In this document: piece after piece, positions 10,301-59,100 of the stretch | How positions within the stretch are numbered: position 1 is the first letter of the stretch | Layout of the letters: each line of letters begins with the position of its first letter | DNA from: Gammaproteobacteria bacterium | Lineage (GTDB): Bacteria > Pseudomonadota > Gammaproteobacteria > Pseudomonadales > Azotimanducaceae | Direction: 5' to 3' | NCBI GenBank assembly: GCA_026706385.1 | Contig: JAPOYV010000134.1 | Coordinates: 1 to 64,000 of the forward strand | DNA: 64,000 bases | The notes under the pieces: generated by a model | Told to the model about the DNA's origin: nothing | What the model saw: the letters and a program-made list of their open reading frames with translations, nothing else | Database searches by the model: none | Made by a program: the position numbers and the translations under genes

Positions 10301-11095
10301 ATGACCTCTTTGGTTCGCCACGAACGGGCGTCGAAGCCGCCACCGTTGGCGGCGGACGGTACGCCGCGACTCCCCCACGTCGCCTATGACGACGAGGGCT
10401 ATCCCCACTCGGATGGCGCCCCGTTGGCTCAGAACACCCCACAGGCGGACCAGATCTTCTATGCCTTTCCAGCGTTGAAGACCATCCTCCGCGAGCGTTT
10501 CCCGGACGCTTTCGTGGCCAGCGACCTGCTGATCTATCCCAGGCCACGGGATCTCAAGGCGTCGGTGGCACCCGACGTGTTCGTGGCGTTCGGCGCGGGC
10601 GACCACGCTCGCCTCTCCTACAAGCTCTGGGAGGGCGAGCCTGTCCCCGCCTTCGTGCTCGAGGTCCTTTCCGGCACGACCGCGGACAAAGACCTCGGCG
10701 AGAAGCGCGACAAGTACGCCGACATGGGCGTCCGGGAGTTCTGGGTGTTCGACCCGTTCGGTGCCCGGATACCCGACCGCGTCGCAGGCTACCAACTGCA
10801 CGGTCGGCGGTACCGGCCGATTCCACCGCTACCGGGGACGCGCGTCGTTCTGAGCGACGTGCTCGGGCTCGAGTTCCGCGAAGAACGCGGCAGCCTGCGT
10901 ATCCACGATCCGGCCACGGGCGAGGATCTCCAAAGTCACCGCGAGGGGCAGATCGACAAGCTGGCCGCGCAGCGCCGGGCCACCGCCGAGGCGGAACGAG
11001 CCGATGCCGAGGCGGAACGCGCGAATGCACTCGCGGCCGAGAATGCCCGGCTCCGGCGGCGGCTAAAGCGCTACGAGTCCGGCCAGGCCTCCTAG
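10301..11095 (+). CDS. Uma2-family restriction-endonuclease-fold protein
   Basis: About 264 residues from the ATG at 10301 (in-frame GTG 10283 and ATG 10295 are alternatives). It has the Uma2/DUF820 PD-(D/E)xK-like fold: SVAPDVFV supplies the first acidic residue, PAFVLEVLS the second, and GEKRDKYADMGVREFWVFDP is the characteristic following stretch. The usual lysine after the E-V pair is not obvious, so catalysis is uncertain. The C-terminus is an Ala/Glu/Arg-rich coiled coil (QRRATAEAERADAEAERANA), common in this family and likely an oligomerisation element. Uma2 genes are often multicopy and of unknown biological role. It runs tail to tail with the SUMF1-lipoprotein operon, whose last stop overlaps its own stop region. 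Confidence 0.82.
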   Translation: MTSLVRHERASKPPPLAADGTPRLPHVAYDDEGYPHSDGAPLAQNTPQADQIFYAFPALKTILRERFPDAFVASDLLIYPRPRDLKASVAPDVFVAFGAGDHARLSYKLWEGEPVPAFVLEVLSGTTADKDLGEKRDKYADMGVREFWVFDPFGARIPDRVAGYQLHGRRYRPIPPLPGTRVVLSDVLGLEFREERGSLRIHDPATGEDLQSHREGQIDKLAAQRRATAEAERADAEAERANALAAENARLRRRLKRYESGQAS

Positions 11096-12663
11096 CGCGC
11101 CCGGTCGAATACCACCCGGAAACCCACCGTCGGCGAGCGGTAGTTCGGCGACAGGTGGTTGCGGTAGTCGAACCTTGCGGTCGAGACCCCCGGCAGCAGG
11201 TAGTTGCCGCCCTTGACGACGACCGCGTAGCCGCCGCTCACCGTGGACACGCTGCGCGTCCACTCGGAGACGTTGCCGCCCAACGCGAGCACGCCCTGCG
11301 CGGACCGGTCGCTGGTGTCCGCCGAGGTGACTTGCGCGGCCCCCAAGGCCTGCTCGCCCGTGACCGGGCTCGCGCCATCGAAGCCGTTACCCCAGGGATA
11401 CAGACGCCGGCCCTGGTCGGAGGCTGCGCTTTCCCATTCCTCCGCCGTCGGCAGACGCCCGCCCGCCCACGACGCGAACGCATAGGCGGACCACCAGTCC
11501 ACGTTGACCACCGGCAAGTCCGGTGTCCGGCTCTGTTCGTCCCAGTCGGGGGGGCGATGCTCGTGCCCGGCGGGCTGGTTGTCCTCGGCGTGGAAGCCGG
11601 CGAGCACGAACGGGTCGCGCAGGAACGCGGCGTACTCGCGGCGCGTGATCTCGCGTACCGTGAAATGGACGTCGGTCGCCGCCGGGCGATCACCCCGCTC
11701 GAGGATCCGCCCAATCAGTGCGATGCGGTCGCGCGGCAAGGCGTTGAGCAGGCTCGGGATGCGCGCACCGTCCGGCACGCCCACGTCGTAGCGCCCCGCT
11801 CGCACCGGCAAGGCACTAACCCCGGTTCGCCAAGGGGTCGCCGGCACGGGTGCGTCGTAGGCGCAGCGGAATCCCAGGTACGGCGAGCGGTAGTCCAGCG
11901 ACGTCCGCCGGTAGAGCGGGGCGAGCGCGTAGAGGTCGCGGGGGGCGTTGTAGGCGTTGCCGCCCATGACGCCGGCGACGGTGGGGTCGTCCAGGACCGC
12001 CCACTCCGAGACCACGCCCCCCATGTCCTCGACCCCCTCCGGCGTCGCCGAGGCCGTATCCGCGCCGCACGTCTGCGCAGCGTTGAGGAGCGGGTCGAGG
12101 TAGGGGGGCGGCGCCTGGTCGAACTCGTCGCCCCACGGATACAGGTGCCGCGCCGGCCCAACGGCCGCGGCCAGCCACTCCTGCGCGCGCGGCAGGCGGC
12201 CGCCGGCCGCCCGGCAGTACGCGTAGGCGTCGTAGAAGGTGACGCCGTTCGCGGGGCCTTCGAGTCGGCCGCTCACGGCGTGATCGTGCGTATTGCTCGA
12301 ATAGCGCCAGGGCGTCGGTTCGCTGGGCGCCGCGATCGCTGCCTCGGGGTGGAACGGCTGCCAGCCGACGAACTTGTAGAAGTCGCCCTGGCGGACCTCG
12401 CACCGGTCGAGCCAGAACGTCTCGGCGATCCGGATCGCCCGCGGACCCGCCGCGAAGACGTGATCGAAGGACCGCAGGTAGCCCAAGTGCGCCAAGTTGC
12501 GCAGCAAGACGGCATCGAAGCGATTCCCCGGCGACGACGACGGATCCGGGAACGCGAAACGCACGTGCACGGTATCGAAGTCGCGCCACAGCGGGCGCAG
12601 GTTGACGCATGCGGCGAGTGTCAGCAGCGCCACCACGACGCCGATCCAAGCGCGCAGCGTCAC
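11092..12663 (-). CDS. Lipoprotein with two SUMF1/FGE-sulfatase-like domains, non-catalytic
   Basis: A 523-residue protein starting at GTG 12663, which overlaps the upstream stop codon (GTGA). The N-terminus TLRAWIGVVVALLTLAAC is a lipoprotein signal with C19 as acylation site. Two formylglycine-generating-enzyme-like domains follow, at about 78-270 and 330-520, each with the typical GRLPRAQEW or GRLPTAEEW, LYPWG, VSEW and YRSP..GFR blocks. The cysteines that do chemistry in true FGE (in the GGSW.C...CR region) are absent: here the text is KGGNYLLPG and MGGNAYNAP. The fold therefore probably serves binding or structure, as in the GldJ/GldK lipoproteins. Last gene of the MotA/ExbB-like operon, it could be the outer-membrane part of an energised envelope complex. 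Confidence 0.82.
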   Translation of the reverse strand: MTLRAWIGVVVALLTLAACVNLRPLWRDFDTVHVRFAFPDPSSSPGNRFDAVLLRNLAHLGYLRSFDHVFAAGPRAIRIAETFWLDRCEVRQGDFYKFVGWQPFHPEAAIAAPSEPTPWRYSSNTHDHAVSGRLEGPANGVTFYDAYAYCRAAGGRLPRAQEWLAAAVGPARHLYPWGDEFDQAPPPYLDPLLNAAQTCGADTASATPEGVEDMGGVVSEWAVLDDPTVAGVMGGNAYNAPRDLYALAPLYRRTSLDYRSPYLGFRCAYDAPVPATPWRTGVSALPVRAGRYDVGVPDGARIPSLLNALPRDRIALIGRILERGDRPAATDVHFTVREITRREYAAFLRDPFVLAGFHAEDNQPAGHEHRPPDWDEQSRTPDLPVVNVDWWSAYAFASWAGGRLPTAEEWESAASDQGRRLYPWGNGFDGASPVTGEQALGAAQVTSADTSDRSAQGVLALGGNVSEWTRSVSTVSGGYAVVVKGGNYLLPGVSTARFDYRNHLSPNYRSPTVGFRVVFDRAR

Positions 12664-14318
12664 GCCGCCTTCCAGTAGCGCCCAACGAGGCCGAGTGCGA
12701 ACACGAGGGCGATCAGGCCGTAGAGCAGGACCTGGCGCGTCTCGCTGCGAAAGGCAATGCTCGGCCGCACCGACTCCACGCGGACGCCGCCGATGTCGAC
12801 GGCGTTCTCGTCCACCGGCAGAACCATCCGGCCGGCCGTGTCGAAGCCGGCGTAGACGAACCCGGTCACGAAGTCCGTCCGTTCCGGATTGACGAGCGTC
12901 ACCACGCGCCACTTGATGTCACGCCCGGCGCCCGGCTCGGATCCGGGCACCAGCACGATGCCGTCTCGCGGCAAGGCCACGCGCAGACCTTCGTGGATCT
13001 CGGCGTGTGTCCCGAGGCGCATGGTCACCGTGGCTCGGTCGCGCGCCCAGTTCAAGCGCGGCTGGTCCGAATCGCGGCGCCAGAGGGCCAAGCCGAGCGG
13101 CTCGTGCGGAAACAGCGCGATCGCCTGACCCTGCACATCCGCGCGGTCCTGGACGCGGATCGCGAGGCCGTCCGACGGTGAAGCACTCCGCGGATCCTCC
13201 ATGAGGAACCTGACGCTGTGCAGCAGACCCGTTTCCGCTGGCGTCGGCGCCGGGAGATTCGGTATGCGACCCAGGACGTCGCGTTCGAAATCGTAGCGCG
13301 GCAGCCGCGACGGCACGCCGGCGTCGGCGTCGGCCTGCACGACGCGCATGTACGCGTACAGCGCGCGCAGGAGGGCGAACAGGTCGACATCGGACGTGAG
13401 CAGGGTCTCCGCAGCCGGCGCCGCCGGGCGCGCGGCCCGGAAGCTGCGGCTGCCGCCGGCTGCGGATGTCCCGGTGTCGGCCGTGGCGCTCGCGGGCGGC
13501 CGGCCCGCATCGTTGCTGCTCTCGTCGCCGGGGCCGCCAGGCAGGTCGAAGAACTCCTGGGAGGCTGCTCCGGCGCCGCCACGCGCCGCGAACGCATCCG
13601 CCGGATAGTTCGCGTCGACGCCGCCGGCGCGTGCCAAGGCCACGTCCTCCGGCAGCGCGGCGCCCGCGCCGAACGCATCGCCCGCTGCCGCCGGACCCGT
13701 GCCCGGTTCGCCGTCGCGGCGTTCGGTACCAACGGCGATGCCGTCGCCATCGGCGCGTGCAACGGCGGCGACCTGGCCGCCAAGGCCGGTACCGCCCGGT
13801 GTGCCCAGGAAGTGCCAATGCCGCGGCCGGTGGTTGTGCGCCTTGAAGATCGACATGGCGACGTAGAACTGGTCGATCGCATAGACGTCCACGCGGACGC
13901 TAAGCAACTGCGCCGGCGTCAGGCTCCCGAGATAGCGATCGAAGGCGTTGTCGTAACGGAGCAACTCCTCGCGGGAGTACGTCTCGCCGGTGTAGTAGTC
14001 GCGGATGAAGTCGGCGTGCAGTTCGATGATGGGCATGATCGAACGCTGCGGATTGCGGTCGAGGGGCGAGGTCACGTAGTCGTGCAACTGCGCGGGCGGG
14101 CTCGTGGGCAACGCGTTCATCACGAACGAACTGGCGAGTTCCCGGCTCAGCAGCACGGCCACATCCTCCGCCTGCTCCAGCTTGTCCTGCTCCTCCTCGT
14201 AGCGCGCCATCAGCGTCACCACGATCATGATGATGACGATGGCGACGCTGTTGGCGAGGATGTCGGCCAGCGCGACGCCCGCGAACGCGGGGAACATGCC
14301 GGGGCGTTCTGGCGGCAC
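12660..14318 (-). CDS. Bitopic ExbD/MotB-like membrane-anchored protein, unknown
   Basis: A 552-residue protein with one N-terminal membrane helix (about residues 15-38, ADILANSVAIVIIMIVVTLMAR) resembling the ExbD/TolR/MotB anchor helix, including an acidic residue at its start. A charged coiled segment rich in Glu follows, then a long periplasmic region with a low-complexity Ala/Gly/Arg-rich middle (about 180-290), and a second hydrophobic helix at the extreme C-terminus (LLYGLIALVFALGLVGRYW). No OmpA-type peptidoglycan-binding motif was recognised. It sits four bases after the small membrane protein gene and overlaps the lipoprotein gene, so it is presumably the stator or torque-linking partner of the channel encoded at 14849. 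Confidence 0.7.
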   Translation of the reverse strand: MPPERPGMFPAFAGVALADILANSVAIVIIMIVVTLMARYEEEQDKLEQAEDVAVLLSRELASSFVMNALPTSPPAQLHDYVTSPLDRNPQRSIMPIIELHADFIRDYYTGETYSREELLRYDNAFDRYLGSLTPAQLLSVRVDVYAIDQFYVAMSIFKAHNHRPRHWHFLGTPGGTGLGGQVAAVARADGDGIAVGTERRDGEPGTGPAAAGDAFGAGAALPEDVALARAGGVDANYPADAFAARGGAGAASQEFFDLPGGPGDESSNDAGRPPASATADTGTSAAGGSRSFRAARPAAPAAETLLTSDVDLFALLRALYAYMRVVQADADAGVPSRLPRYDFERDVLGRIPNLPAPTPAETGLLHSVRFLMEDPRSASPSDGLAIRVQDRADVQGQAIALFPHEPLGLALWRRDSDQPRLNWARDRATVTMRLGTHAEIHEGLRVALPRDGIVLVPGSEPGAGRDIKWRVVTLVNPERTDFVTGFVYAGFDTAGRMVLPVDENAVDIGGVRVESVRPSIAFRSETRQVLLYGLIALVFALGLVGRYWKAA

Positions 14319-14321
14319 GGG

Positions 14322-14807
14322 TCAGCGCAGCGTCTCGTGCGCTTCCGGGGCCACCGCCTGACGGATGAACGCCGGGATGTCGCCGAGCGACACGGATTTC
14401 AAGAGTTCGTCGTTGGCGATGATCCAGCCGATCGACAGCAGGCGCTCCGGCAGCACGCGCATGATGCAGTTGCGCGCCTCGGCCATGGTGCCGACGCCGT
14501 CCTCGAGAATCGCGAACACGATCTGCTGCCGATCCGCCTGGTACACGCGCCGCACGTACGGCACGAACGGGCTGTCGGGGCGGCAGATGGCGCCAGCGGA
14601 GATCGCCTGGCCGGTCTCCACGATGCGCAACTCCGACGGAAAGGCGAGCACCACGTAGCCCTCCCCGCTCGCCCCCCAGCCGACCCGGTAGAGGCCTTCC
14701 TCCGACGCCGTCTCCAGGCGCTCAACCAGGGCCGCCTGCGAGAGCAGGTTCATGAGCAGGAAGAGCACCAGGAGCAGCGCGAAGATGCCGCCGAAAATCT
14801 CCACCAT
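14322..14807 (-). CDS. Small membrane-anchored protein in ExbB-like operon
   Basis: A 161-residue protein from the ATG at 14807. The frame is open further upstream, but that part overlaps the channel gene and reads as a shadow. It starts with a membrane helix (MVEIFGGIFALLLVLFLLMNLLSQA) carrying an acidic residue at position 3, as ExbD/TolR anchors often do, and continues as a soluble domain with two cysteines (AICRP, NCIMRV). No family is recognised. Its place directly after the channel gene suggests it is a second bitopic subunit of the same complex. Confidence 0.65.
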   Translation of the reverse strand: MVEIFGGIFALLLVLFLLMNLLSQAALVERLETASEEGLYRVGWGASGEGYVVLAFPSELRIVETGQAISAGAICRPDSPFVPYVRRVYQADRQQIVFAILEDGVGTMAEARNCIMRVLPERLLSIGWIIANDELLKSVSLGDIPAFIRQAVAPEAHETLR

Positions 14808-14848
14808 CGGGGCACCGCTGGACTCCTGTTCCAGCGCCCGCGGCGATG

Positions 14849-15931
14849 CTATGGCGAGTCCCCCGGACGCGGCGCGTCCCCTGGACGCGGCGTCTGGGCC
14901 CGTACGCGGCCCTCGTAGGCCACGAGCACACCGTCCTCCCAGCGCTGCAGGGCGGTCTGCAACAGGGTGAGGAAGACGCTCAGCGACAGCGCGATCAGCG
15001 TCGTGTCGAAGGCGATTCCCAGCGGTGCGATGGCCTGGCCCAGTTCCGTGGACAGGTCCGACAGGCTGCTGCGCGAACCGATGATGTTCTGGATGCCGTC
15101 GGCGGCCAGCGAGATGCCGAGCACGGTGCCGATGAAACCGAGGATGGGGATCGCCCAGTTGATGTAGCGCGGCACGATGTAGAAGTCCGCGGACTTCTTC
15201 CACACCAGTTCCAGGAACTCGTTGGTGCCCGTGATCTCGCCGCCGGCGACCGCTTGGCCATGGGCGCGCAGCAGCACGGACTCGCTGCCTTGGCGGGGCC
15301 GGTCCATCAGCCTGCCCTCGCGCCACAACACCCAAGCCTTGTTAGCCAGCAGCAGCAGACCCCAGAAGAACAGCATGAGGGTGAGCGGCGGAATGATGCC
15401 GCGGTCGACGAACTTCGCCGTCACGTACGACCAGGACGGCACGCGCAGACCCACGTAGTGAATGAGCAGCACGGCACCGACGGCCACCGTGATACCGAGC
15501 GCAAGCGTCAGCACCATGGGCGGGCCGGAGAGCGCAACCGAGAGGCGGTCCGGCACCGAGGCCTGACGCGCTAAAACACCTTCACGCCGGTTCAACAGCA
15601 GGTAGACGACGTACACCGACGGCGCCATCAGCAGCAGCGGGATCGACGCTTCGATCAGCACCGGTTCATCGGCCAGGACCGGCAACAGGGCGCTGGCCGA
15701 GAGCGTCGCTGCGATCCCAAGAAGCAGCACGAGGCCGACCACCTCCGCGCAACGCCCCGACTCCGGCGCGCCCGCCAAGCGAGGGAGCCACATCGGCAAC
15801 GAGCCCAACGCGATGCCCAGAAGGCCGCCGAGCACGAGCGGCGCGCCCAAGGCCAGTGCGATGCTCGCCCCGGCAATGGCGCAAAGCGCCGCGAATGCGC
15901 CAATGAGGACTGTGTGCAGCATCGCGTCCAA
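14849..15931 (-). CDS. MotA/TolQ/ExbB-family proton channel protein
   Basis: A 360-residue inner-membrane protein. The N-terminal half has several hydrophobic segments. The C-terminal part (about 195-345) is the MotA/ExbB core: NWAIPILGFIGTVLGIS, then GQAIAPLGIAFDTTLIALSLSVFLTLLQTAL, matching the two conserved pore helices. Such proteins form pentamers around a dimer of bitopic subunits and convert proton or sodium flow into movement. It is larger than TolQ or ExbB (about 230) and lacks an obvious flagellar MotA cytoplasmic domain. First gene of a four-gene minus-strand operon with two bitopic proteins and a SUMF1-fold lipoprotein; the combined function is unknown. Confidence 0.85.
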   Translation of the reverse strand: MDAMLHTVLIGAFAALCAIAGASIALALGAPLVLGGLLGIALGSLPMWLPRLAGAPESGRCAEVVGLVLLLGIAATLSASALLPVLADEPVLIEASIPLLLMAPSVYVVYLLLNRREGVLARQASVPDRLSVALSGPPMVLTLALGITVAVGAVLLIHYVGLRVPSWSYVTAKFVDRGIIPPLTLMLFFWGLLLLANKAWVLWREGRLMDRPRQGSESVLLRAHGQAVAGGEITGTNEFLELVWKKSADFYIVPRYINWAIPILGFIGTVLGISLAADGIQNIIGSRSSLSDLSTELGQAIAPLGIAFDTTLIALSLSVFLTLLQTALQRWEDGVLVAYEGRVRAQTPRPGDAPRPGDSP

Positions 15932-16030: not shown

Positions 16031-16492
16031 CTATCCGCCGGGTGGCTCCCCCACGTGCGCCGTCTCCAGCGGCTGGCGTGTATGTTCTTCCACGACGCGT
16101 ACGCGCTCCGCCAAGCCTTCCACACTGATCTGGATCGCCGTCACAGCCTGCTCCAATCCCCGCACGCGGTCATCGAGGGCACCGATTTGGGCGGTGAGGT
16201 CCCTGCGCATGTTGTTCATCTCCACACGCAGATTGCCGACCTCCGTGCGAACGCTTCCGATCTGCGTGCGCATCTCCGTGCGAACGCTTTCGATCTCCGT
16301 GCGCATCTCCGTGCGCACGCTTCCGATCTCCGTGCGGATGCCCGCCGTCGTCACCAGAATCATGGCGCCGATGCCAACGGCGACGGTGAGCACGGTGCCA
16401 ATGACGGCGACGGTCTGGCCGTCGAGTCGCGCGGGCAAACTCGACCTCCGTCGTTCTGTCGTCTGCACTTTCGGCTTCACCTGCTGCCTCAA
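16031..16492 (-). CDS. Membrane-anchored hendecad coiled-coil protein
   Basis: A 153-residue protein with a charged N-terminus, one membrane helix (about 28-50, VAVIGTVLTVAVGIGAMILV), then a long coiled coil built on 11-residue units (RTEIGSVRTEM, RTEIESVRTEM, RTQIGSVRTEV) and a further heptad-rich tail. The role is unknown; proteins of this build are often small envelope or scaffold proteins. It lies upstream of the proton-channel gene on the same strand, 100 bases away, so it may or may not belong to that operon. Confidence 0.65.
   Translation of the reverse strand: MRQQVKPKVQTTERRRSSLPARLDGQTVAVIGTVLTVAVGIGAMILVTTAGIRTEIGSVRTEMRTEIESVRTEMRTQIGSVRTEVGNLRVEMNNMRRDLTAQIGALDDRVRGLEQAVTAIQISVEGLAERVRVVEEHTRQPLETAHVGEPPGG
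16241..16340. repeat. 33-bp tandem repeat inside coiled-coil gene
   Basis: About three imperfect 33-base units (ctccgtgcgcat ctccgtgcg..) encode the hendecad repeat. The in-frame period suggests expansion by slippage. Confidence 0.6.
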
Positions 16493-16674: not shown

Positions 16675-18192
16675 CTACGCCATCCGCTCTATGTTCAAGA
16701 GCAGCCATCCCTCGTTGTCGTCGTACGAGTCCATGAGGTCGATCCGTGATTGGATGTCATTGGCGAAAGCCAGAAGGTGGCCGTCGAACGGGGCGTCGAA
16801 CTCTGCTTTCAACCCGATGCGAAACGGCGCCTCCCGACCGTCCGCAGCGCGAAGGATGCCGACGAGTTCCAGCCAGTTGGCGTCGGGGAGGACGCGTCGG
16901 CTTCGGCCGAGGTTGATCAGCGGGCGCTTCATTCGGCTGAGCCGGCGGAAGTGGGTTCCGAGCGCCTCGTCGTCCATGTGCCAGCCGCGCGCGTCGCAGG
17001 GCGGGAGGTCGCCGTCACGCCAGCACTGTGTCGGTTCCGCCCACAGCCGGTAGCGAGCCCCGGCGACCATCCGGACGAAGGTGTCGTTCCGATGGCGCTC
17101 CGCATGGACGATCGCCTGGGCGCGCCCACGGGGCTCAAGCGCGGTTCGGCGCGGCAGCAGCCCCAGACTGCCCAGTGTGCCTACCTCTCGCGCTGCCGCG
17201 TCAAGCAGACCGCGCTGTTCGCCGCCGAGGTCTTCGCCGTAGTCCGGCAGGTCCATGAAACGCGCGATCGCGGAGGCATGGAACACGGGCGCGTCACCGA
17301 GCCCCCGGCGCCGGCGCCCGTAGATCGGGTTTCTGTCGCGGCTGAAGTAGGCGTTGTGATCCCTTGCCGCGAGGCCCGGAAAAGCGGTATCGACCGAGAG
17401 CCCCAGCCCATGCCGCGCGATACCTTCCGCCATCCACTCCAGCGCGAACCGCGCCAGCGGCTCCTTGTGCTTGGTTCCGCCGCCGACGGATCCGTGGTCG
17501 CCGGGGAACCAGACCTCCTCGAGGTTCTGTCCCTCACGGCCACGTCGCATGCGCGTCGGCGCGAATTCCCGGCGTCGCTCGTCGATCGCGACCGCGTGCA
17601 GCGCGTTCGCCACGTGCGGCCCGAGTTGGCCGTCGATCCACCGGTAGCGCCGGTTGAAGCGGCGGTCCAGTCCGATTCCAGGCAGCTTGTCGGGGATGCC
17701 CAGGGCACCCACCGTGTCCCAGCACCCGAGCAACGTGATCTCCGGAACGCGCGTGCCGTGCTCGGCCCGGAACGCCTTCGCGGCGACCCCGTTGGCCTCC
17801 TTCTCGCTCCGGTACAACTCGTAGGCCTGCGCGAAATGCGTGAGCTGGTGCCGCCCCAGCATGCCGGCGTAGCCGATCAACCCCGCGAGGCTTCGGGCCG
17901 TGTACGCGCCCCGACTGAAGCCGAACAGGTAGATCTCGTCGCCGGCCTCGTGGTTGTTGGCCAGGAAACGGTAGGCCTGGCGTACGTTGAGGTCCAAGCC
18001 CTCGCCCATCGCGCCGCCGGCAATCCGGTCCATCCAACCCGCCGTACCCACGCCCTCGTCGTAGTAGACGAGCTGCAGGCATCCATCCGTGCCCCGCGGG
18101 CTCACGGCTTGCGCCATGCGGACTACGTTCGTGGGACTCTCCATCTCGGGCGTGTTCCACGTGCCGTCGCAACAAACCACCAGTCGCTTCAT
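16675..18192 (-). CDS. DUF2235 alpha/beta hydrolase (Tle1-like phospholipase fold)
   Basis: A 505-residue protein of the DUF2235 family. It begins KRLVVCCDGTWN, the family's N-terminal hallmark, and has the nucleophile elbow GFSRG with S93, followed by YTARSLAGLIGYAG; a DTVGALG segment is also typical. The start at 18192 is chosen because GGGAGGTG sits seven bases upstream; the frame is open further but reads as shadow. Members include type VI secretion phospholipase effectors (Tle1) and many uncharacterised cytoplasmic hydrolases. No VgrG, PAAR or immunity gene is adjacent, so an effector role is not supported. Divergent from a small membrane-protein gene. Confidence 0.85.
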   Translation of the reverse strand: MKRLVVCCDGTWNTPEMESPTNVVRMAQAVSPRGTDGCLQLVYYDEGVGTAGWMDRIAGGAMGEGLDLNVRQAYRFLANNHEAGDEIYLFGFSRGAYTARSLAGLIGYAGMLGRHQLTHFAQAYELYRSEKEANGVAAKAFRAEHGTRVPEITLLGCWDTVGALGIPDKLPGIGLDRRFNRRYRWIDGQLGPHVANALHAVAIDERRREFAPTRMRRGREGQNLEEVWFPGDHGSVGGGTKHKEPLARFALEWMAEGIARHGLGLSVDTAFPGLAARDHNAYFSRDRNPIYGRRRRGLGDAPVFHASAIARFMDLPDYGEDLGGEQRGLLDAAAREVGTLGSLGLLPRRTALEPRGRAQAIVHAERHRNDTFVRMVAGARYRLWAEPTQCWRDGDLPPCDARGWHMDDEALGTHFRRLSRMKRPLINLGRSRRVLPDANWLELVGILRAADGREAPFRIGLKAEFDAPFDGHLLAFANDIQSRIDLMDSYDDNEGWLLLNIERMA

Positions 18193-18345
18193 GGCAATCA
18201 CCTCCCGGACCGCGCGACGATCGTCCCAGACCGGCGCCGCCCCGCCAAGTCCCCATGGGGTCAGCGCCGCGGCGGATGCTTGCCCTTTGGTCGGTTCCGT
18301 GATACGCCGTCGAGCAGGCGTGTCACGCCGGGAGCTGTCCAACAA

Positions 18346-18894
18346 GTGATCGTCCGCACGGCATTCTGGTTCGGGGTCGTCGGCGCCGCCGTGTTCATGG
18401 TCGCCTGGCCTGTCGGGCTGACCCCGGTGCTCATGGCCCCGTTGCCGGACCACATCGGAACCGTGCTGCTCGATGTGATGGGCTATGTACCCTATGCCGC
18501 AAGCTGGGCCCTTGCCGCCCTGTTCGGCTTCGTCTAGCTCGCGGTGCCGGGGTTCGCGTGGGGCGCCTACCGGGCATGGCGGGAACGTCGCCGCTATTGG
18601 CACGACCCGACGGGCCGTGACGCAACCGGGCTTCTCCGGGAAGGCACCGGGATCTGGGCTGTGGCGGTCGGCTCGGTAGCGGGTGCGGCGCTGGCTTTAG
18701 CCGTTTCCTTGTCCCGCCCCGTGCCGGACGGGGCTCCCGGCGTTCCACTGCCACTGTCGGCGATGGCTGGCATCGCGGGCGACTGGCCCCTCTTTTTGGC
18801 GTGCGCCGTTCTCGGCGGCTTGCTCGGCCATTTCGCCGTCAAGTGGGTCCACGCGGTGTGGCGCGTCGAGGACCACGCGGGCGACGACAGATAA
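18346..18894 (+). pseudogene. Membrane protein gene interrupted by in-frame TAG
   Basis: Two open segments, 18346-18537 (63 residues from GTG) and 18538-18894, lie in the same frame and are separated only by a TAG at 18535-18537. Read through, they give about 182 residues with three to four hydrophobic segments; the interrupted helix (ASWALAALFGFV, stop, LAVPGFAWGAYRAW) is continuous across the stop, followed by an RERRRYW basic turn. This looks like a single membrane protein with a nonsense mutation, a suppressible amber codon, or a base error. The downstream half could restart at GTG 18544. No family recognised. Confidence 0.5.
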
Positions 18895-18953
18895 GTTGCG
18901 GCGCGCAACCGCCGCGTAGTACAACCCGGCAATTGAGTGCGCGGGTGGCGTGT

Positions 18954-19868
18954 ATGCCGAGCCTGTCCATCGTCGTCGCCGCCTACGACATGCAAAGAGA
19001 GGCCCCGCGGACGGTTCTGTCGCTCCTACCCCCATTGCAGCGCGGCGTGGCCGACGTGGAATACGAGATCATCGTCGTCGACAACGGCTCGCCGGTGCCC
19101 CTGGACCTCGGTCGCCACGTCCGCGACGGCGCGAAGCCGCCCGTGCGCCTCGTGCGCATCTCGCGCTGCGAGGCGCAGGTCTCGCCCACGCGGTGCATCA
19201 ACGCCGCCGCCAAGGAGACGATGGGCGACTGGCTGATGATCTGCATAGACGGCGCACGGCTCGCGAGTTCGCACCTCGTGCGCCGGACGGTCGAGGTGCT
19301 CTCGCGGCATCCAAAGGCGTTCACGTTCGTCGGCAGCCGACATCTCGGTGCGAAACCGCAGATGCAGTCCGTACAGGAGGGCTACGACCAGGGCGCGGAG
19401 GACGAGTTGCTGCGGTCAGTCGCCTGGCAAACCGATCTGGACGAACTCTTCCGGATCAGCGTCTGGGCCAATGCCCACGACCAGCGCGAACGAATCCGGC
19501 AGAACGAGAGCAATGCGTTCGCCATGGCGCGGTCCACCTGGGACGCCCTCGGCGGCTACGACGAGGGCTTCACCCGGCCCGGCGGTGGCCTGTGCAACCT
19601 GGAACTCTTCGAGCGCGCGGTCAATCGCAAACCGTCCCTCGGCACCCTGAACGTCCTCCTCTACGGCGAGAGCACGTTCCACCAGGTCCACGGCGGCGCG
19701 GCAACGTCCCTCGACGGCTATTTCAAGCAGAGCCAGGAGGAATACACGCGGGTGACCGGGCGTACCTATGCGCGGCCGTCCTACCCGTTCCTGGCGGATC
19801 TCGGCGAGACGCATGACCGCATGGCGGCCGTCGGCCGGTTCCTGATCGACCACGAGAGCCATGCCTGA
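18954..19868 (+). CDS. Family 2-type glycosyltransferase
   Basis: A 304-residue GT-A fold glycosyltransferase. The N-terminus PSLSIVVAAYDM and EIIVVDNGSP are classic family-2 nucleotide-sugar-binding strands; LGGYDEGFTRPGGG is the usual acceptor-side motif. It would transfer a sugar from a nucleotide donor to a growing glycan at the cytoplasmic face. The ATG at 18954 is chosen because the upstream in-frame sequence is shadow coding. Its stop overlaps the start of the next gene by eight bases, coupling it to the sulfotransferase-glycosyltransferase fusion. Confidence 0.82.
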   Translation: MPSLSIVVAAYDMQREAPRTVLSLLPPLQRGVADVEYEIIVVDNGSPVPLDLGRHVRDGAKPPVRLVRISRCEAQVSPTRCINAAAKETMGDWLMICIDGARLASSHLVRRTVEVLSRHPKAFTFVGSRHLGAKPQMQSVQEGYDQGAEDELLRSVAWQTDLDELFRISVWANAHDQRERIRQNESNAFAMARSTWDALGGYDEGFTRPGGGLCNLELFERAVNRKPSLGTLNVLLYGESTFHQVHGGAATSLDGYFKQSQEEYTRVTGRTYARPSYPFLADLGETHDRMAAVGRFLIDHESHA

Positions 19869-21870
19869 CACGCCCTGCGTGGTCGTCGCGGGGATGCATC
19901 GATCCGGCACCTCGCTGGTGGCCGCGATGCTCGCGGACGTCGGTCTCCGGCCGCTGGGCGAAACGATGCCGGCCCACCCCGTAGACAACCCGGGCGGCTA
20001 CTTCGAGTCGCGCGAACTGGTGCAGATCAACAATCGCTTCCTCGCGTCGAGCGGACAGACCTGGGCATCCCCGCAGCCGCTGCCCGGCGGGTTTTTCGAC
20101 AGCGCCGATGCGAGGCGCTCCCGCGAGGAAATCGACGCCTTCCTCGACGCGCACCGCCCCGCAGCGCGCGGCGTATTGATCAAGGATCCGCGGCTGTGCC
20201 GACTGCTGCCGCTTTGGGTCGAAGCGCTCGCCGCGCGTTTCGATCCGCTGGTGTTCGTGCGCGTGATACGCCGCGCCGACGCCGTTTTCCGATCCCTGGC
20301 GCGGCGCGCCGAGCGCAACGACACCGCCAAGGCGGCCGTCACCTGCCCGGCGCAAGCCGATCTGCTGTGGCTGCACTACAACCTCGAGCTCGACAAGCAC
20401 ACCGTGTCGCGGCAGCGCTTCACGGTCGCCTACGAAGACCTCATGCAAGCGCGCAGCCGCCGCGTGACCGACTTCCTCGCCGGGTTGAGCCGTTCGCTCG
20501 ACGCCACCGTCGAATCGCCCGCCAACCCGGCCAGGCGATCCCAAAAAGCGGCCAGGGACATAGCACTGATGTCGGATCGCGACCGCGTTTGCGAAACCGT
20601 CTACCAAGCCCTGCTCGAGGGCGACGATGCGACGCTCGACGCCGCGCGACGCCAGCTCGAGACAACGGTCCCCGACGCCCACCAGGACGTGACCGGGACA
20701 GACGCCGAAGTCTTCCACCGGGCCCGCCTGCGCCACTTCGTGAGCAAGACCGCCTATCGGCCCGTTTTCCCGTCGTCCCCGCGAGCCCGCCTGTGGCGGC
20801 GGCCCAGGCGCGATCGCGGCCAGCGTGAGTTCCTGTTCGTCTCCGGCAGACCGCGCAACCGGGGACACCTCTACCGCGTCCACAACGCCGTCGATGCCTT
20901 GAACCGCATGGGGGTTCCGGCCCGCTGGATGTCGCGCGCCATGTTGGAACGCCACGGCATGCCAAGCAGCCGTCCGCGCTGCGTAGTCATCCACCGTTGC
21001 CCCTACGACGCGACGATCGAACAACTGCTGGACAGGTGCCGCGCCCGCGGCATCACGGTCGGCTTCGACATCGACGACCTGATCTTCGACCCGGAGCTGA
21101 TCGAACTCGGCGGCATCCGCTTCATCGCCGACCTGGAGCCGCCGGCCAGAGCGCGCTGGGTACAGGATGCCCGGTCCTATCAGCGCACGATGGCGGCCGC
21201 GGCGTTCTGCATCGTACCGACCGAGCCGCTGGCGGACCACGCGCGGCGCTTCAACACCCAAGTCGCCGTCATAGAAAACGCCTTCAACCCGGACGTACTC
21301 GCCCTTTCCGACTTCTGGCGGGAGCAGCGCGAAGCGAACGCGGTCGTACGAATCGGCTACGCCAGCGGCACGGCCACGCACGATGGCGACTTCGCGACCA
21401 TCGCGCGGCCCTTGGCGAAAGCCCTTGCGGGCCAGGCCGATTGGCGCTTTACCGCGCTGGGCACCCTAGGTCGTCAGACGTACGAGAACGTCGTTGCCGC
21501 GGGCCAAGTCGAGGTGCGACCGGTGGTCGAACACGTGAACCTCGCCTACGAACTCGCGCGCTTCGACGTCAACCTGATCCCCCTGGAGAGCAACGCGTTC
21601 TGCGACGCCAAGAGTCCCCTCAAGTACTTCGAGGCGGCCCTCACCGGCACGCCGACCCTCGCCGTGCGCAACCCCCTCTACGCGGACTTGATCGAACACG
21701 GCCGCAACGGCCTGCTCGCCGCGACGGACGACGAGTGGCAGGACGGCATCGCCGTGCTCGCGAGCGACCCCGGACGGCGCCGCGAACTCGCGACCGCCGC
21801 GCGGGAGCAGTGCCAGGATCGTTTCCACGTGGACCGGCTCGTCGAGAAGTACCTGCACCTGCCGATCTGA
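19861..21870 (+). CDS. Sulfotransferase-glycosyltransferase fusion protein
   Basis: A 669-residue two-domain enzyme. Residues 1-250 are a PAPS-dependent sulfotransferase: GMHRSGTS is the 5'-phosphosulfate-binding loop and the stretch RVIRRADAVFRSLARR fits the 3'-phosphate-binding segment. Residues about 320-669 are a GT-B type glycosyltransferase, with FVSGRPRNRGHLYRV early and the C-terminal SPLKYFEAALTGTP and HGRNGLLA motifs that bind the donor nucleotide. The fusion implies coupled glycosylation and sulfation of a carbohydrate. It overlaps the gene before and precedes another fusion at 21914, defining an operon for a sulfated glycan. The substrate is unknown. Confidence 0.8.
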   Translation: MPDTPCVVVAGMHRSGTSLVAAMLADVGLRPLGETMPAHPVDNPGGYFESRELVQINNRFLASSGQTWASPQPLPGGFFDSADARRSREEIDAFLDAHRPAARGVLIKDPRLCRLLPLWVEALAARFDPLVFVRVIRRADAVFRSLARRAERNDTAKAAVTCPAQADLLWLHYNLELDKHTVSRQRFTVAYEDLMQARSRRVTDFLAGLSRSLDATVESPANPARRSQKAARDIALMSDRDRVCETVYQALLEGDDATLDAARRQLETTVPDAHQDVTGTDAEVFHRARLRHFVSKTAYRPVFPSSPRARLWRRPRRDRGQREFLFVSGRPRNRGHLYRVHNAVDALNRMGVPARWMSRAMLERHGMPSSRPRCVVIHRCPYDATIEQLLDRCRARGITVGFDIDDLIFDPELIELGGIRFIADLEPPARARWVQDARSYQRTMAAAAFCIVPTEPLADHARRFNTQVAVIENAFNPDVLALSDFWREQREANAVVRIGYASGTATHDGDFATIARPLAKALAGQADWRFTALGTLGRQTYENVVAAGQVEVRPVVEHVNLAYELARFDVNLIPLESNAFCDAKSPLKYFEAALTGTPTLAVRNPLYADLIEHGRNGLLAATDDEWQDGIAVLASDPGRRRELATAAREQCQDRFHVDRLVEKYLHLPI

Positions 21871-21913
21871 GCCGGAACCCCAAGCCAGGTTCAACGGCGG
21901 TATTCTTCGGCGG

Positions 21914-24310
21914 ATGCGGCGACACCCCTACCGGTACTCGATGGTCGTCGATCGGGCGCCGTTACATCCCTACCAGGCGGGCATTCTGCTGTTCACGCTG
22001 GAACGCTTCGCAGGCGTGCCACGCGAGAGCGTCGTCGTGCAGTGCACCGACCGGGTGTCCCGCGACGTGCGCGAGACCTTCGAAGCCAACGGCTACGCCG
22101 TCGCGACGCTCGTCCCCTACCTCGACGGCAAATACTGCAACAAGATCGCCCAACTCGATCACCTGGTGGACAACCAGGACGACGGTATCGAGGGCGTCTT
22201 TCTGCTCGACCTCGACCTCGCGGTGGCGGCGCCGCTCGACATCGCCGACCCGGCAGTGGTGTGGGGCAAACCCGTCGACGCCGACAGCCCCCCGCTGCCC
22301 GCGCTCGAGAAGGTGTTCGCTGCGGCCGACGTGCCGCTGCCCGCGACCCTGGCCTGCGACTGGCCGAACCGCGGCGAGTCGATCGACACGAACTTCAACG
22401 GCGGTTTCCTCTACATCCCGGCAGCCGTTGTGCCGAGTCTGCGAACGGCATGGCGCGCTTGGGCCGAGTTCCTCTTCGCCAGCCCGGAGATCTTCGACCC
22501 GCCCTCCGCCCGGCACCACATCGACCAGATCTCCTTTGCCATGGCGCTCGCGACCGAGCGGACGCCGTACCGGCACCTCGCGACGAACTGGAACTTCCCG
22601 TGCCACAACGCCAAGGCGCTGCCGCCACGCCGCTTCGACGCCGCCGAGCAACTGCGCGTCGTCCACTACCACGACTGCCTGGACGAATTCGGCCTGGTCG
22701 CACCGAGGCTGCAAGGATTCGCGCCGCTCGACGCCGCGCTCGACACGGTGAACGCCGCCATCGGCGCGCGAGAGGACGCGCTCTTCTTCGAGCCGTACAA
22801 GCGGCACCTGGCCTTGGACGCGGCCAGCCGCATTCCGGCGGTCTCGACGCCGCTTTTCTCCCCGGAGTTCGTCGCGCGAACGTGGAGCGGCGAGGAAAAG
22901 CGCCGCCTGATCCTGCACGCGGGGACGCCGAAAACCGGCACGTCGTCGCTGCAACGTCACCTCGGCCTGCACCGCGACGCGCTGGCCAAGCATGGATGGT
23001 GGTATCCGGAGCCGTCGGACACGCCGGAACCCAAGCACCAGCAGATCAACGACCTTTTGATGTGGGGCGACGAAGAGGCGTTTACCCGCCACATCGAGGA
23101 CGCGCTGCGCGACATGCCGGACGAGACGCACACCATCGTCTTCACCACGGAAGGCATCTACAACCAGTGGTGGGACTACAAGCCCGCGGTCAAGGGTGCC
23201 TTGCGCCACCTGGCCGCGCTGTTCGACTTCGAACTGTGCGTGTGGTTTCGCCAGCCCGAAGAGTTCGCCGCGTCGCTCTACGTCCAGTACCTGACCAACC
23301 CGCCTTCCCGGAACGCCCCGCGGAACGTCTACGGGCGCGACATCGGCTTTGCCGAAGCCCTGGCGGACCCCTGGTTCCGCCGCCACCTGGACTACCTCGG
23401 CTTCTACCTCGAGGCGCAACAGCTTTTCGGACCGGGCCGCGTCAGCGCGTTCCCCTACGCGGGCGACACGGTCAAGACCTTTTTCGACTACTACGGCGTC
23501 CGCGGCGTGTCGCCCGGACACGGCCGCCGCAATCCGTCCTTGAGCCGCCCGGCCATCGACTTCGTCCGCGCCGTGAACCGCGCTGCGCTCGAGAAAGGCG
23601 AGCGCGCACGCGCGATGAAGCTGATCGACGAGATCCAAGACATCGTGGGGGACCGCGGCGACGCCCTGGAGCTAGACCAGGACGAACGGCGCGCGGTCGC
23701 CCGGCTGGCCAACGCCGGCTGGAGCGCGCTTGGTCCCGAGCTGTCGAACCCCAGGCGCACGGCACACCGACGCCCTCTCAAGCCGAAGGTGTTCGGCATC
23801 GGCTTCCACAAGACGGGCACCAAGTCGCTGCGCAAGGCACTGGCAACGCTCGGCTACGAGGTCACCGGGCCGGACGGCGCCCAGGATCCCGCCATCGCGG
23901 ACCGTGCGGTTGCCGTCGCGCTGGGCCTGGCCACGGAACACGATGGCTTCAGCGACAACCCGTGGCCGCTCCTGTACCGGGAACTCGACGTCGCCTTCCC
24001 CGGCAGCCGGTTCGTCCTGACGGTGCGCGACGAGAGTCAGTGGATCGACAGTGTCGTGCGGTTCTTCGGCGCCGCGGAGTCGCCCATGCGGGAGTGGATC
24101 TACGGCGTCGGAACCCCCGTCGGCAACGAGGCCACCTATCTCACCCGCTACCGCCGCCACAACGCCGATGTGCTCGAGTACTTCCGAGACCGCGACGATC
24201 TCCTGGTGATGGACCTCGAAAGCGGCGACGGATGGAAGGAACTGTGCGGCTTTCTCGGCGTAGCGACACCCGCATCGCGTTTTCCCCACGTGCAACCGCC
24301 GCCTCGCTAA
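21914..24310 (+). CDS. Tri-domain glycosyltransferase-sulfotransferase-sulfotransferase
   Basis: A 798-residue protein with three parts. Residues 1-300 resemble a GT-A nucleotide-sugar transferase, with FLLDLDLAV at about 96-104 giving a DxD-type motif and FNGGFLYIP later. Residues about 330-600 form a sulfotransferase-like domain beginning LILHAGTPKTGTSS. Residues about 625-798 form a second one beginning KVFGIGFHKTGTKS, with FVLTVRDESQW as its 3'-phosphate-binding region. Two PAPS-type loops in one chain suggest sulfation at two positions, or one active and one binding domain. It is the last gene of the 18.95-24.3 kb cassette. Assignments rest on motifs only. Confidence 0.78.
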   Translation: MRRHPYRYSMVVDRAPLHPYQAGILLFTLERFAGVPRESVVVQCTDRVSRDVRETFEANGYAVATLVPYLDGKYCNKIAQLDHLVDNQDDGIEGVFLLDLDLAVAAPLDIADPAVVWGKPVDADSPPLPALEKVFAAADVPLPATLACDWPNRGESIDTNFNGGFLYIPAAVVPSLRTAWRAWAEFLFASPEIFDPPSARHHIDQISFAMALATERTPYRHLATNWNFPCHNAKALPPRRFDAAEQLRVVHYHDCLDEFGLVAPRLQGFAPLDAALDTVNAAIGAREDALFFEPYKRHLALDAASRIPAVSTPLFSPEFVARTWSGEEKRRLILHAGTPKTGTSSLQRHLGLHRDALAKHGWWYPEPSDTPEPKHQQINDLLMWGDEEAFTRHIEDALRDMPDETHTIVFTTEGIYNQWWDYKPAVKGALRHLAALFDFELCVWFRQPEEFAASLYVQYLTNPPSRNAPRNVYGRDIGFAEALADPWFRRHLDYLGFYLEAQQLFGPGRVSAFPYAGDTVKTFFDYYGVRGVSPGHGRRNPSLSRPAIDFVRAVNRAALEKGERARAMKLIDEIQDIVGDRGDALELDQDERRAVARLANAGWSALGPELSNPRRTAHRRPLKPKVFGIGFHKTGTKSLRKALATLGYEVTGPDGAQDPAIADRAVAVALGLATEHDGFSDNPWPLLYRELDVAFPGSRFVLTVRDESQWIDSVVRFFGAAESPMREWIYGVGTPVGNEATYLTRYRRHNADVLEYFRDRDDLLVMDLESGDGWKELCGFLGVATPASRFPHVQPPPR

Positions 24311-57345: not shown

Positions 57346-59100
57346 TCGCTTCTCTTGGCCGGGGGCAGGCCGAGGCCCGCCGCCCGGGTCCGGACTCAGC
57401 CGCCGGACACGTAGGTGTTGTTGACCAGCACGCCCTCGGAGCGCGTCAGCACCTGCACCTCGACGTTGCGGTCCGGCGCGATCACGTCGCACGCCAGCCG
57501 GCCCTCCATCCAGGCGTCCTCGCCGAACACCTCGCGAAGGTCCATCGCCGAGCCGCCGCCGCCGTCGCGCAGCGTCATCGTCGCACGCGCCGGGATCATC
57601 GCGGAGACCTTGCCGAACACGTCGTTGCCCGCCGTGTCCGTGCACGCCAGGAAGATCTGGCAGTCGCTGCTGTCGTCGCAGCGAACCCGCACGTTGCTCG
57701 TGTCGCCGCTCGACATCGGCGCGATCGCGTAGGCCCGCGGCAGCATGCCGTCGGTGCCCGCGTAGCGCACCTGCACCGTGGCCATGCCAGGCTCGGCCAC
57801 GCCGACCCACGGCGGCGCCGCCAGCCACATCAGGTCGGCGATGCCGCTGCGGAACGAGACCGACGCCGTCGCCTTGATCGTGCCCGGGCTCAGCGTCCGC
57901 TTGCCGTCGACCATCACGTACAGCTTCGCGCTCGACGGCAGACCGCTCAGCGAGAAGTCGTTCGTCGCCATGCCGCCCGACACCGCCAGCTCCTCGCCGG
58001 TGTCCATCACCGGACCGCCGCGGTTCGCGACCGTGTCCAGGAACACCATGTCCGTGTCGCCGACGCCGTACACCGTCACCACCGCGTGGCCCGCGCCCCC
58101 GGCGTCGAACCCGAAGGCCTTGCCGTTCGACTGCAGGACGCCCGGCGTCAGCATCACGCTCACCGTGCCGACCTCGATCAGGCTCGTCATCTTCGGCGGC
58201 GTGCCGCCCGTCACCAGCTGCATGCGGCCCTCGACGTCGATGTCCGCGTAGGACATCTCCGGGCTCATGCTCAGCATGACCGCGTCCGCCGCGCGGGGGA
58301 TGACCCGCGTGCTGATCGCCACGTCGTCGTCCACCAGCGCGCCGTCCTTCATCACCTTGCGCTCGACCATGTCGACCACCGGGAAGTTCGTCGTGATGCT
58401 GTCCGTCGAAACCGACACCGTCACCCCGCCTGCCGAGACGCCGTCCAGGGCCGGCAGCTTAAGTACGAACATGTCGCCAAGGCTCGGGGTATCTGCGCTG
58501 CTGTCGCTGTCGGTGCGGGCTTCCCCGAAGCTCCCGCCGGTCGCGATCTGAACCTCGAACGTCACCGAGCTGTCGCCCGCGGCGCCGCCCTCCGACCGTC
58601 TCAGGACGGCGAAGGTTGCAGCCGCCTCGGCGGCCACGGTGTTGAAGCCGGTGGCTGTTTGCGCATCGGTCTGCCCCGCGATGGCGACTAGGTCGCTGTT
58701 GCGCACCGAGGTCGCGAACTTCGCGCCTCCCAGCGCGAACGTGATCAGGCCCTTGCTGTCCGCCGCCATTGCGGCGTCGGCCGACCGGGCCTCGAGGATC
58801 ACGTACGGGCGCATCCCGTCGTTCGCGCCGAAGCCCAGCAGGGCCTCGATCGCCGAAGCCGCGGTCGGCACGTCGCCGGCCGCCGGCGCGGCCGAATACG
58901 TCGGGTAGCCCGACACCTTGCCGGTGCCGACGATCTCCTCCAGCGCGTAGGTGTGGCCGTTGTTGCCCGCCGACACCTCGAACGCCCCGTTCACGTAGTC
59001 GCCCGCGGCCTGCGCCCAGGCGCCGACCGCGAGCACCACCGCCAACGCGGCCGCAGCCGCTGTCCTCAGTTGCTTCATGACCATGAGTCGTTACTCTCCA
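57314..59100. repeat. 1.79-kb direct repeat, copy 1
   Basis: Covers terminator, coding region and ribosome site of the exported protein. It matches 59299-61085 at a constant offset of 1985 bases with only a few differences, all near the start codon end in what was compared. Confidence 0.9.
57396..59084 (-). CDS. Duplicated exported protein, unknown (copy 1)
   Basis: A 562-residue protein with a clear signal peptide (KQLRTAAAAALAVVLAVGAWAQA). The mature part is acidic, rich in Ala, Gly, Val, Ser and Thr, and poor in Lys and Cys, which together with predicted strands (VSVMLTPGVLQSNG, VTVYGVGDTDMVFLDT) suggests an extracellular beta-rich protein. Two cysteine pairs are near the end (RVRCDDSSDCQIFLAC and GRLACD). 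No catalytic motif or family was recognised. The ATG GTC ATG start has GGAGAG nine bases upstream, a good promoter at 59155-59182 and a strong terminator, as for an abundant protein such as a surface-layer or major secreted protein. That role is inferred. Confidence 0.8.
   Translation of the reverse strand: MVMKQLRTAAAAALAVVLAVGAWAQAAGDYVNGAFEVSAGNNGHTYALEEIVGTGKVSGYPTYSAAPAAGDVPTAASAIEALLGFGANDGMRPYVILEARSADAAMAADSKGLITFALGGAKFATSVRNSDLVAIAGQTDAQTATGFNTVAAEAAATFAVLRRSEGGAAGDSSVTFEVQIATGGSFGEARTDSDSSADTPSLGDMFVLKLPALDGVSAGGVTVSVSTDSITTNFPVVDMVERKVMKDGALVDDDVAISTRVIPRAADAVMLSMSPEMSYADIDVEGRMQLVTGGTPPKMTSLIEVGTVSVMLTPGVLQSNGKAFGFDAGGAGHAVVTVYGVGDTDMVFLDTVANRGGPVMDTGEELAVSGGMATNDFSLSGLPSSAKLYVMVDGKRTLSPGTIKATASVSFRSGIADLMWLAAPPWVGVAEPGMATVQVRYAGTDGMLPRAYAIAPMSSGDTSNVRVRCDDSSDCQIFLACTDTAGNDVFGKVSAMIPARATMTLRDGGGGSAMDLREVFGEDAWMEGRLACDVIAPDRNVEVQVLTRSEGVLVNNTYVSGG

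Follow-up and report, generated by a model that had tools for sequence, protein, structure and literature searches.

What do four tightly packed genes on the minus strand of a gammaproteobacterial contig build together? The genes lie within 15931..11092 of a 64,000-nucleotide stretch of contig JAPOYV010000134.1 (assembly GCA_026706385.1, family Azotimanducaceae), referred to here as the window, which is part of contig C83 in a draft genome of 5.1 Mb. In the order of the minus strand, they encode a channel protein (CH), two axle-type membrane proteins (P3 and P2) and a tandem SUMF1/FGE-fold protein (SU). The sequence-only reading of this locus had proposed an envelope machine made of an ExbB/MotA-like channel, two bitopic proteins with acidic residues at the helix start, and a lipoprotein with two FGE folds lacking the catalytic cysteines. 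Our analysis bears this out in part: the unit, the channel and the dead FGE sites hold, and three anatomical details fail. The products of the four genes probably form a single motor of the inner membrane that belongs to the MotAB/ExbBD/TolQR superfamily and has a dedicated periplasmic partner (probability roughly 0.6), and the best reading is an undescribed variant of the 5:2-type proton motor, not a type IX system. The four-gene unit was not described in the literature searched, including the accessible parts of PMC8163846, PMC9389320, PMC12505986, PMC11812461 and PMC8986121.

A four-gene unit conserved across divergent genomes

The four genes are coupled, as had been proposed: they share one strand, 3 nt separate P3 from P2, and the start of SU overlaps the end of P2 by 4 nt (GTGA). 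CH (14849..15922, minus strand, 357 amino acids) starts at the ATG at 15922, with a TTG at 15931 as a less likely alternative. P3 (14322..14807, minus strand, 161 amino acids) starts at the ATG at 14807; a CTG at 14834 is also possible, and several homologues begin 10–16 codons upstream. P2 (12660..14318, minus strand, 552 amino acids) and SU (11092..12663, minus strand, 523 amino acids) both start with GTG, at 14318 and 12663, respectively.

Scanning genome contigs yielded 380 stretches with a channel relative, of which the best 80 were retained: 56 loci (L095–L150) are orthologues by neighbourhood, and 24 (L151–L174) are distant loci of the same scan. Beside CH, P3 is present in 55 of the 56 loci, P2 in 53 and SU in 49. 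The order CH-P3-P2-SU is kept wherever the contig permits, except in L103, where the unit is split and P3-P2-SU stand together elsewhere on the same single contig, and in L099, where the remaining ~660 bases contain no SUMF1 match. In five other loci (L100, L105, L108, L137 and L147), SU is missing at a contig end. None of the 24 distant loci has P3, P2 or SU at E ≤ 1e-4. The gap is at most 100 nt in 144 of 157 neighbouring gene pairs, and 91 pairs overlap, although single gap values may be off because the starts were picked by a simple rule. Co-occurrence of the four genes had been set beforehand as the check on the sequence-only reading, and the genes do co-occur. Since the unit recurs in divergent genomes, it is more than a chance arrangement.

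In the window's genus, a strong channel match is found in 14 of 16 genomes and P3 in 15 of 16 (own genome included). P3 occurs in 34 of 206 genomes and 4 of 37 genera of the family, and in 6 of 369 evenly drawn Gammaproteobacteria, again counting the own genome. In the draft genome of L041/L098, P3, P2 and SU are broken by frame changes and a run of N, which are probably assembly faults.

The channel, the axle-type proteins and the dead FGE domains

The assignment of CH to the MotA/TolQ/ExbB channels is based on family evidence, as the window copy itself has no MotA_ExbB match in Pfam. Among 38 CH homologues, 26 match PF01618 at E ≤ 0.01, and the scores of the copies in L148, L149 (Vibrio) and L150 (Aliivibrio) exceed the Pfam curated cut-off. 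In hhalign, the CH family profile matched profile A8 (23 rows) over CH residues 129–339, with a probability of 99.9% and an E value of 7.6e-37; the A8 members tested directly, L055 and L058, both match PF01618. The channel proposed from the sequence is thus supported by both homologue matches and profile comparison. Conserved stretches of CH include PRYINWAIPILGFIGTVLGISLA and APLGIAFDTTLIALSLS, and the best conserved are PILGFIGTVLGIS and PLGIAFDTTL. Asp306, Thr307 and Thr308 are invariant (55/55) and do not vary in a set of 38 rows with the vibrio copies either. Hydropathy gives eight hydrophobic segments in 23 of 38 CH proteins, seven in 10 and fewer in 5, whereas ExbB and TolQ have three. 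Sequence searches of the PDB with CH, P2 and P3 profiles returned no credible relative; matches such as troponin T were rejected as composition effects.

P2 consists of an N-terminal helix, a conserved part, a variable Gly/Ala/Pro-rich middle and a C-terminal helix. The Asp of the L[AVS]DILAN motif in the N-terminal helix (VALADILANS in the window, codon 14264-14262 on the minus strand) is invariant in 51 of 51 proteins, and its place at the helix start is a feature that P2 shares with MotB. A C-terminal hydrophobic segment is present in 48 of 50 P2 homologues, and the other two reach a contig end. Because of this second helix, P2 looks anchored at both ends and is not bitopic, with most of the chain, including the variable middle, presumably periplasmic. 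Domain searches did not place the protein. Pfam and NCBIfam scans of the window P2 and P3 gave nothing useful, and P2 matched no Pfam family apart from one stray FemAB_like match among 50 members, in which neither MotB_plug (PF13677) nor an OmpA-type domain was detected (0/50 at E ≤ 0.01). Short-helix hhalign comparisons scored 0.3% with MotB, 1.8% with ExbD and 5.8% with VWA-like proteins, against at most 6% for controls and only 22% for the MotB-ExbD benchmark itself. The low-scoring alignments set Asp on Asp with MotB, and also with VWA-like proteins. By profile, the P2 helix is assignable to neither MotB nor ExbD.

P3 combines an N-terminal hydrophobic helix (MVEIFGG...) with a predicted domain whose nearest fold is that of TolR/ExbD, and this prediction supports a periplasmic ExbD/TolR-type fold. 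The helix carries a Glu in the window (codon 14801-14799, minus strand), but the position holds 25 Glu, 29 Ala and no Asp among 54 members, all Ala rows belonging to one 29-row clade, while the helix Asp is invariant in 32 of 32 rows of our ExbD comparison set. The acidic helix start expected of both proteins is thus a constant of P2 and not of P3; as to the pore-facing acid that the sequence-only reading requires, conservation favours P2 and counts against P3. Two Cys are invariant in P3. Among its 54 members, none matches PF02472 at E ≤ 0.05, and one matches MotB_plug weakly (E 0.03). The short-helix comparisons reached 10–14% against at most 6% for controls, on the same benchmark of 22%. 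The helix region also weakly matches 8qyd_F, a "Membrane protein" (E 1.2) that we take to be ZorB; PADLOC found no ZorB match in the window P2 or P3 at E ≤ 1.

SU has an N-terminal hydrophobic segment followed by two domains (about amino acids 74–222 and 337–518) that both match FGE-sulfatase PF03781. None of 47 SU proteins has a Cys between the GGN and GFR motifs of either domain, a stretch in which the aligned human FGE has several Cys and in which we take the catalytic Cys pair of FGE to be located. This agrees with the two FGE folds without catalytic cysteines that were first read from the window. The lipoprotein label does not extend to the family: a lipobox pattern matches in 5 of 47 SU proteins but is sensibly placed in only two, the window copy and L095, which are ~93% identical, and the remaining proteins have a plain N-terminal hydrophobic segment.

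A probable mechanism can be drawn from these parts. CH would form a ring, presumably in a 5:2 arrangement with its axle, to which P2 would contribute the essential Asp found where its N-terminal helix begins. P3 could serve as another axle-type subunit, or it could pack against the ring as a partner. Because of the homology of CH, protons are the ion that we infer to flow between CH and the Asp helix of P2; their passage by the P2 Asp and by Asp306, Thr307 and Thr308 of CH would cause a relative movement of ring and axle, possibly a rotation. P2 and P3 would transmit this movement into the periplasm to the membrane-anchored SU, whose dead FGE domains may serve as a module that binds a ligand of the envelope or surface.

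Known motors as alternatives

The alternative that survives best, although we regard it as unlikely, is a specialised Ton/Tol-like energiser, in which CH and P3 would work as ExbBD/TolQR and P2 or SU as a TonB/TolA-like transducer pulling on an outer-membrane receptor. CH belongs to the same superfamily, and the predicted fold of P3 is nearest to TolR/ExbD. In 16 loci, TonB-related genes lie downstream of SU on the same strand: a TPR-TonB_C gene in 9 and a TonB-dependent receptor gene in 14, with both in some. However, all 16 fall in one 17-row clade, the window's genus has upstream sulfotransferases instead, and by eye none of these genes is among the open reading frames around the vibrio copies. 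The window's genome already holds four PF02472 and six PF01618 genes, and TonB_C is absent from the window SU and from 50 P2 proteins. The architecture differs as well, since CH has about eight hydrophobic segments, P3 has neither the Asp nor a PF02472 match, and the unit has, in addition, an Asp-bearing protein with two helices and a protein with tandem pseudo-FGE domains. In 15 loci of the clade with the TonB-related genes, a Ser/Thr kinase gene is also found upstream, on the opposite strand.

A surface, gliding or secretion machine like GldKLMN or AglRQS, in which the motor would drive SU and then an outer-membrane or surface partner, has a still smaller chance of being right. The layout of the type IX motor is indeed similar: GldLM-GldKN and PorLM-PorKN pair a proton motor with an FGE-fold envelope protein, as described in the accessible part of PMC8986121. 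The AglRQS motor of Myxococcus xanthus has one channel with two different axle-type proteins, and the accessible part of PMC9389320 states that AglQ and AglS both carry a conserved aspartate and names no FGE-fold partner. In five of the 13 loci L095–L107, a glycosyltransferase-sulfotransferase gene ends 18–44 nt before CH (L097 and L104–L107), which also fits a surface function. The analogy with type IX secretion and gliding that the sequence had suggested stands for this layout but not for kinship. SU scores 19 bits against the GldK model (cut-off 350), and among solved structures FGE/SUMF1 is nearest to it in sequence (E 9e-15), ahead of PorK (E 8e-7). GldK is an outer-membrane lipoprotein, and the essential acid of the type IX motor is on GldL; here, SU with its two FGE domains is for the most part no lipoprotein, and the acid is on P2. 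Nothing beyond the four genes is fixed across clades. The SprA translocon profile had no match in the window's genome, nor in any of 14 control genomes.

It is highly improbable that the unit is an anti-phage system like Zorya, with a motor that senses envelope damage: the PADLOC matches of the window CH are weak but all to ZorA3 models (E 0.003–0.07, best 14 bits), and the 8qyd_F match, the methylase genes close to CH in three loci and the differing genomic places of the locus also fit it, but CH lacks the long cytoplasmic tail of ZorA, the unit has an FGE-fold partner where Zorya has a cytoplasmic effector, P2, P3 and SU have no PADLOC match, and at most 5 of 129 flanking open reading frames match one methylase model, a count taken from 25 of 152 matching families that may miss other defence genes; a GmrSD/HNH gene lies near L131.

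The same genome contains a second system of related composition on contig C131 (L055:2381-13670), with a PF01618 channel, two axle-type proteins and a PEGA-SUMF1 protein. The N-terminal helix of its axle-type proteins (FLDV..CGFGA) carries an Asp, and a DxSxS motif of the VWA type can be read in them by eye; Pfam VWA is found in only one of the two L058 copies (E 0.06). The order of channel, two VWA-like proteins, PEGA-SUMF1 protein, TPR protein and others is conserved in four loci (L055, L056, L057 and L058). The combination of Exb-type channel, two axle-type proteins and FGE-fold protein is thus found in two schemes. Weak channel matches are found in many genomes of the family, several beside an FGE-like match, and may represent C131-type systems.

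Neighbours, carriers and meaning

Because its neighbours vary between clades, with no fifth gene fixed, the unit is self-contained, and its genomic position differs. Of the 13 loci L095–L107 of the window's genus, 9 have a GT4-sulfotransferase fusion no more than 8 kb upstream; in the window, glycosyltransferase and sulfotransferase genes, some fused, form a row at 18801-24310 on the strand opposite to the motor genes. A link to sulfated glycans as the general function was dropped because sulfotransferase genes were not found in other clades. DNA methylase genes (N6_N4_Mtase) end 21–56 nt upstream of CH in L109 (L109:6338-7666, also with HNH), L110 and L148 (L148:6517-7476). Other neighbours include a cytochrome-assembly gene (L130) and a GmrSD-type/HNH gene (L131). 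Read by eye only, there are also several housekeeping genes, a GGDEF/EAL-like gene (L149) and a transposase-like gene (L143). Within the window, the product of 16675-18603 has a catalytic domain like that of the phospholipase Tle1 (PF09994, E 2e-80). The short protein encoded at 16031-16492, just upstream of CH, contains SVRTEMRTE-like repeats as well as a hydrophobic segment, and similar open reading frames occur near the motor in L039. Two tandem 562-amino-acid genes (57396-59084 and 59381-61069) have near-identical beginnings and 95% GC at third positions, above their neighbours.

Many carriers are marine bacteria that seem to live in sponges. By name or sample code as we interpret them, 31 of the 56 carrier titles read as sponge-associated (three by name, L130, L143 and L145; by code, 15 COS/IRC/RHO/STY, 11 SB06xx and 2 PNG). 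The distant loci of the same scan have 0 of 24 such titles (Fisher p 5e-7), although the rows are not independent, the control taxa differ, and the loci are the best 80 of 380 relatives. Sponge species with initials matching the sample codes are listed in the accessible part of PMC8163846, and the codes were not found as bin names in that of PMC11812461. Two carriers are from culture collections, Vibrio thalassae CECT8203 (L149) and Aliivibrio finisterrensis LMG 23869 (L150). Metagenome-assembled genomes titled Nitrospirales (L131), Myxococcota (L129) and Deltaproteobacteria (L112) nest among Gammaproteobacteria, so horizontal transfer between phyla was considered; it is not claimed, since genome titles can be out of date and bins can be mixed. 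Surface-glycan handling or host contact are guesses at the task of the motor, prompted by the apparent sponge bias and by the sulfotransferase neighbours in the window's genus.

A more specific version of the proposed motor, which we hold only tentatively and consider rather doubtful, has an unlike axle pair with one member always acidic, P2 as both axle and transducer, and a role in attachment to or exchange with sponges. If true, a five-membered ring whose axle has a single protonation site would move in strokes of about 72 degrees, not 36 degrees, and P2, tethered at both ends, would merge the axle role of ExbD/MotB with the transducer role of TonB/TolA. To our knowledge, the known motors of the superfamily are few: the flagellar stator, Ton, Tol, Agl, Zorya and, by analogy, Gld. 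The unit described here would add one with a fixed four-gene composition and a dedicated dead-enzyme partner, and the natural Glu/Ala series in one axle-type subunit may make it possible to test the number of protonation sites required by a motor of this kind.

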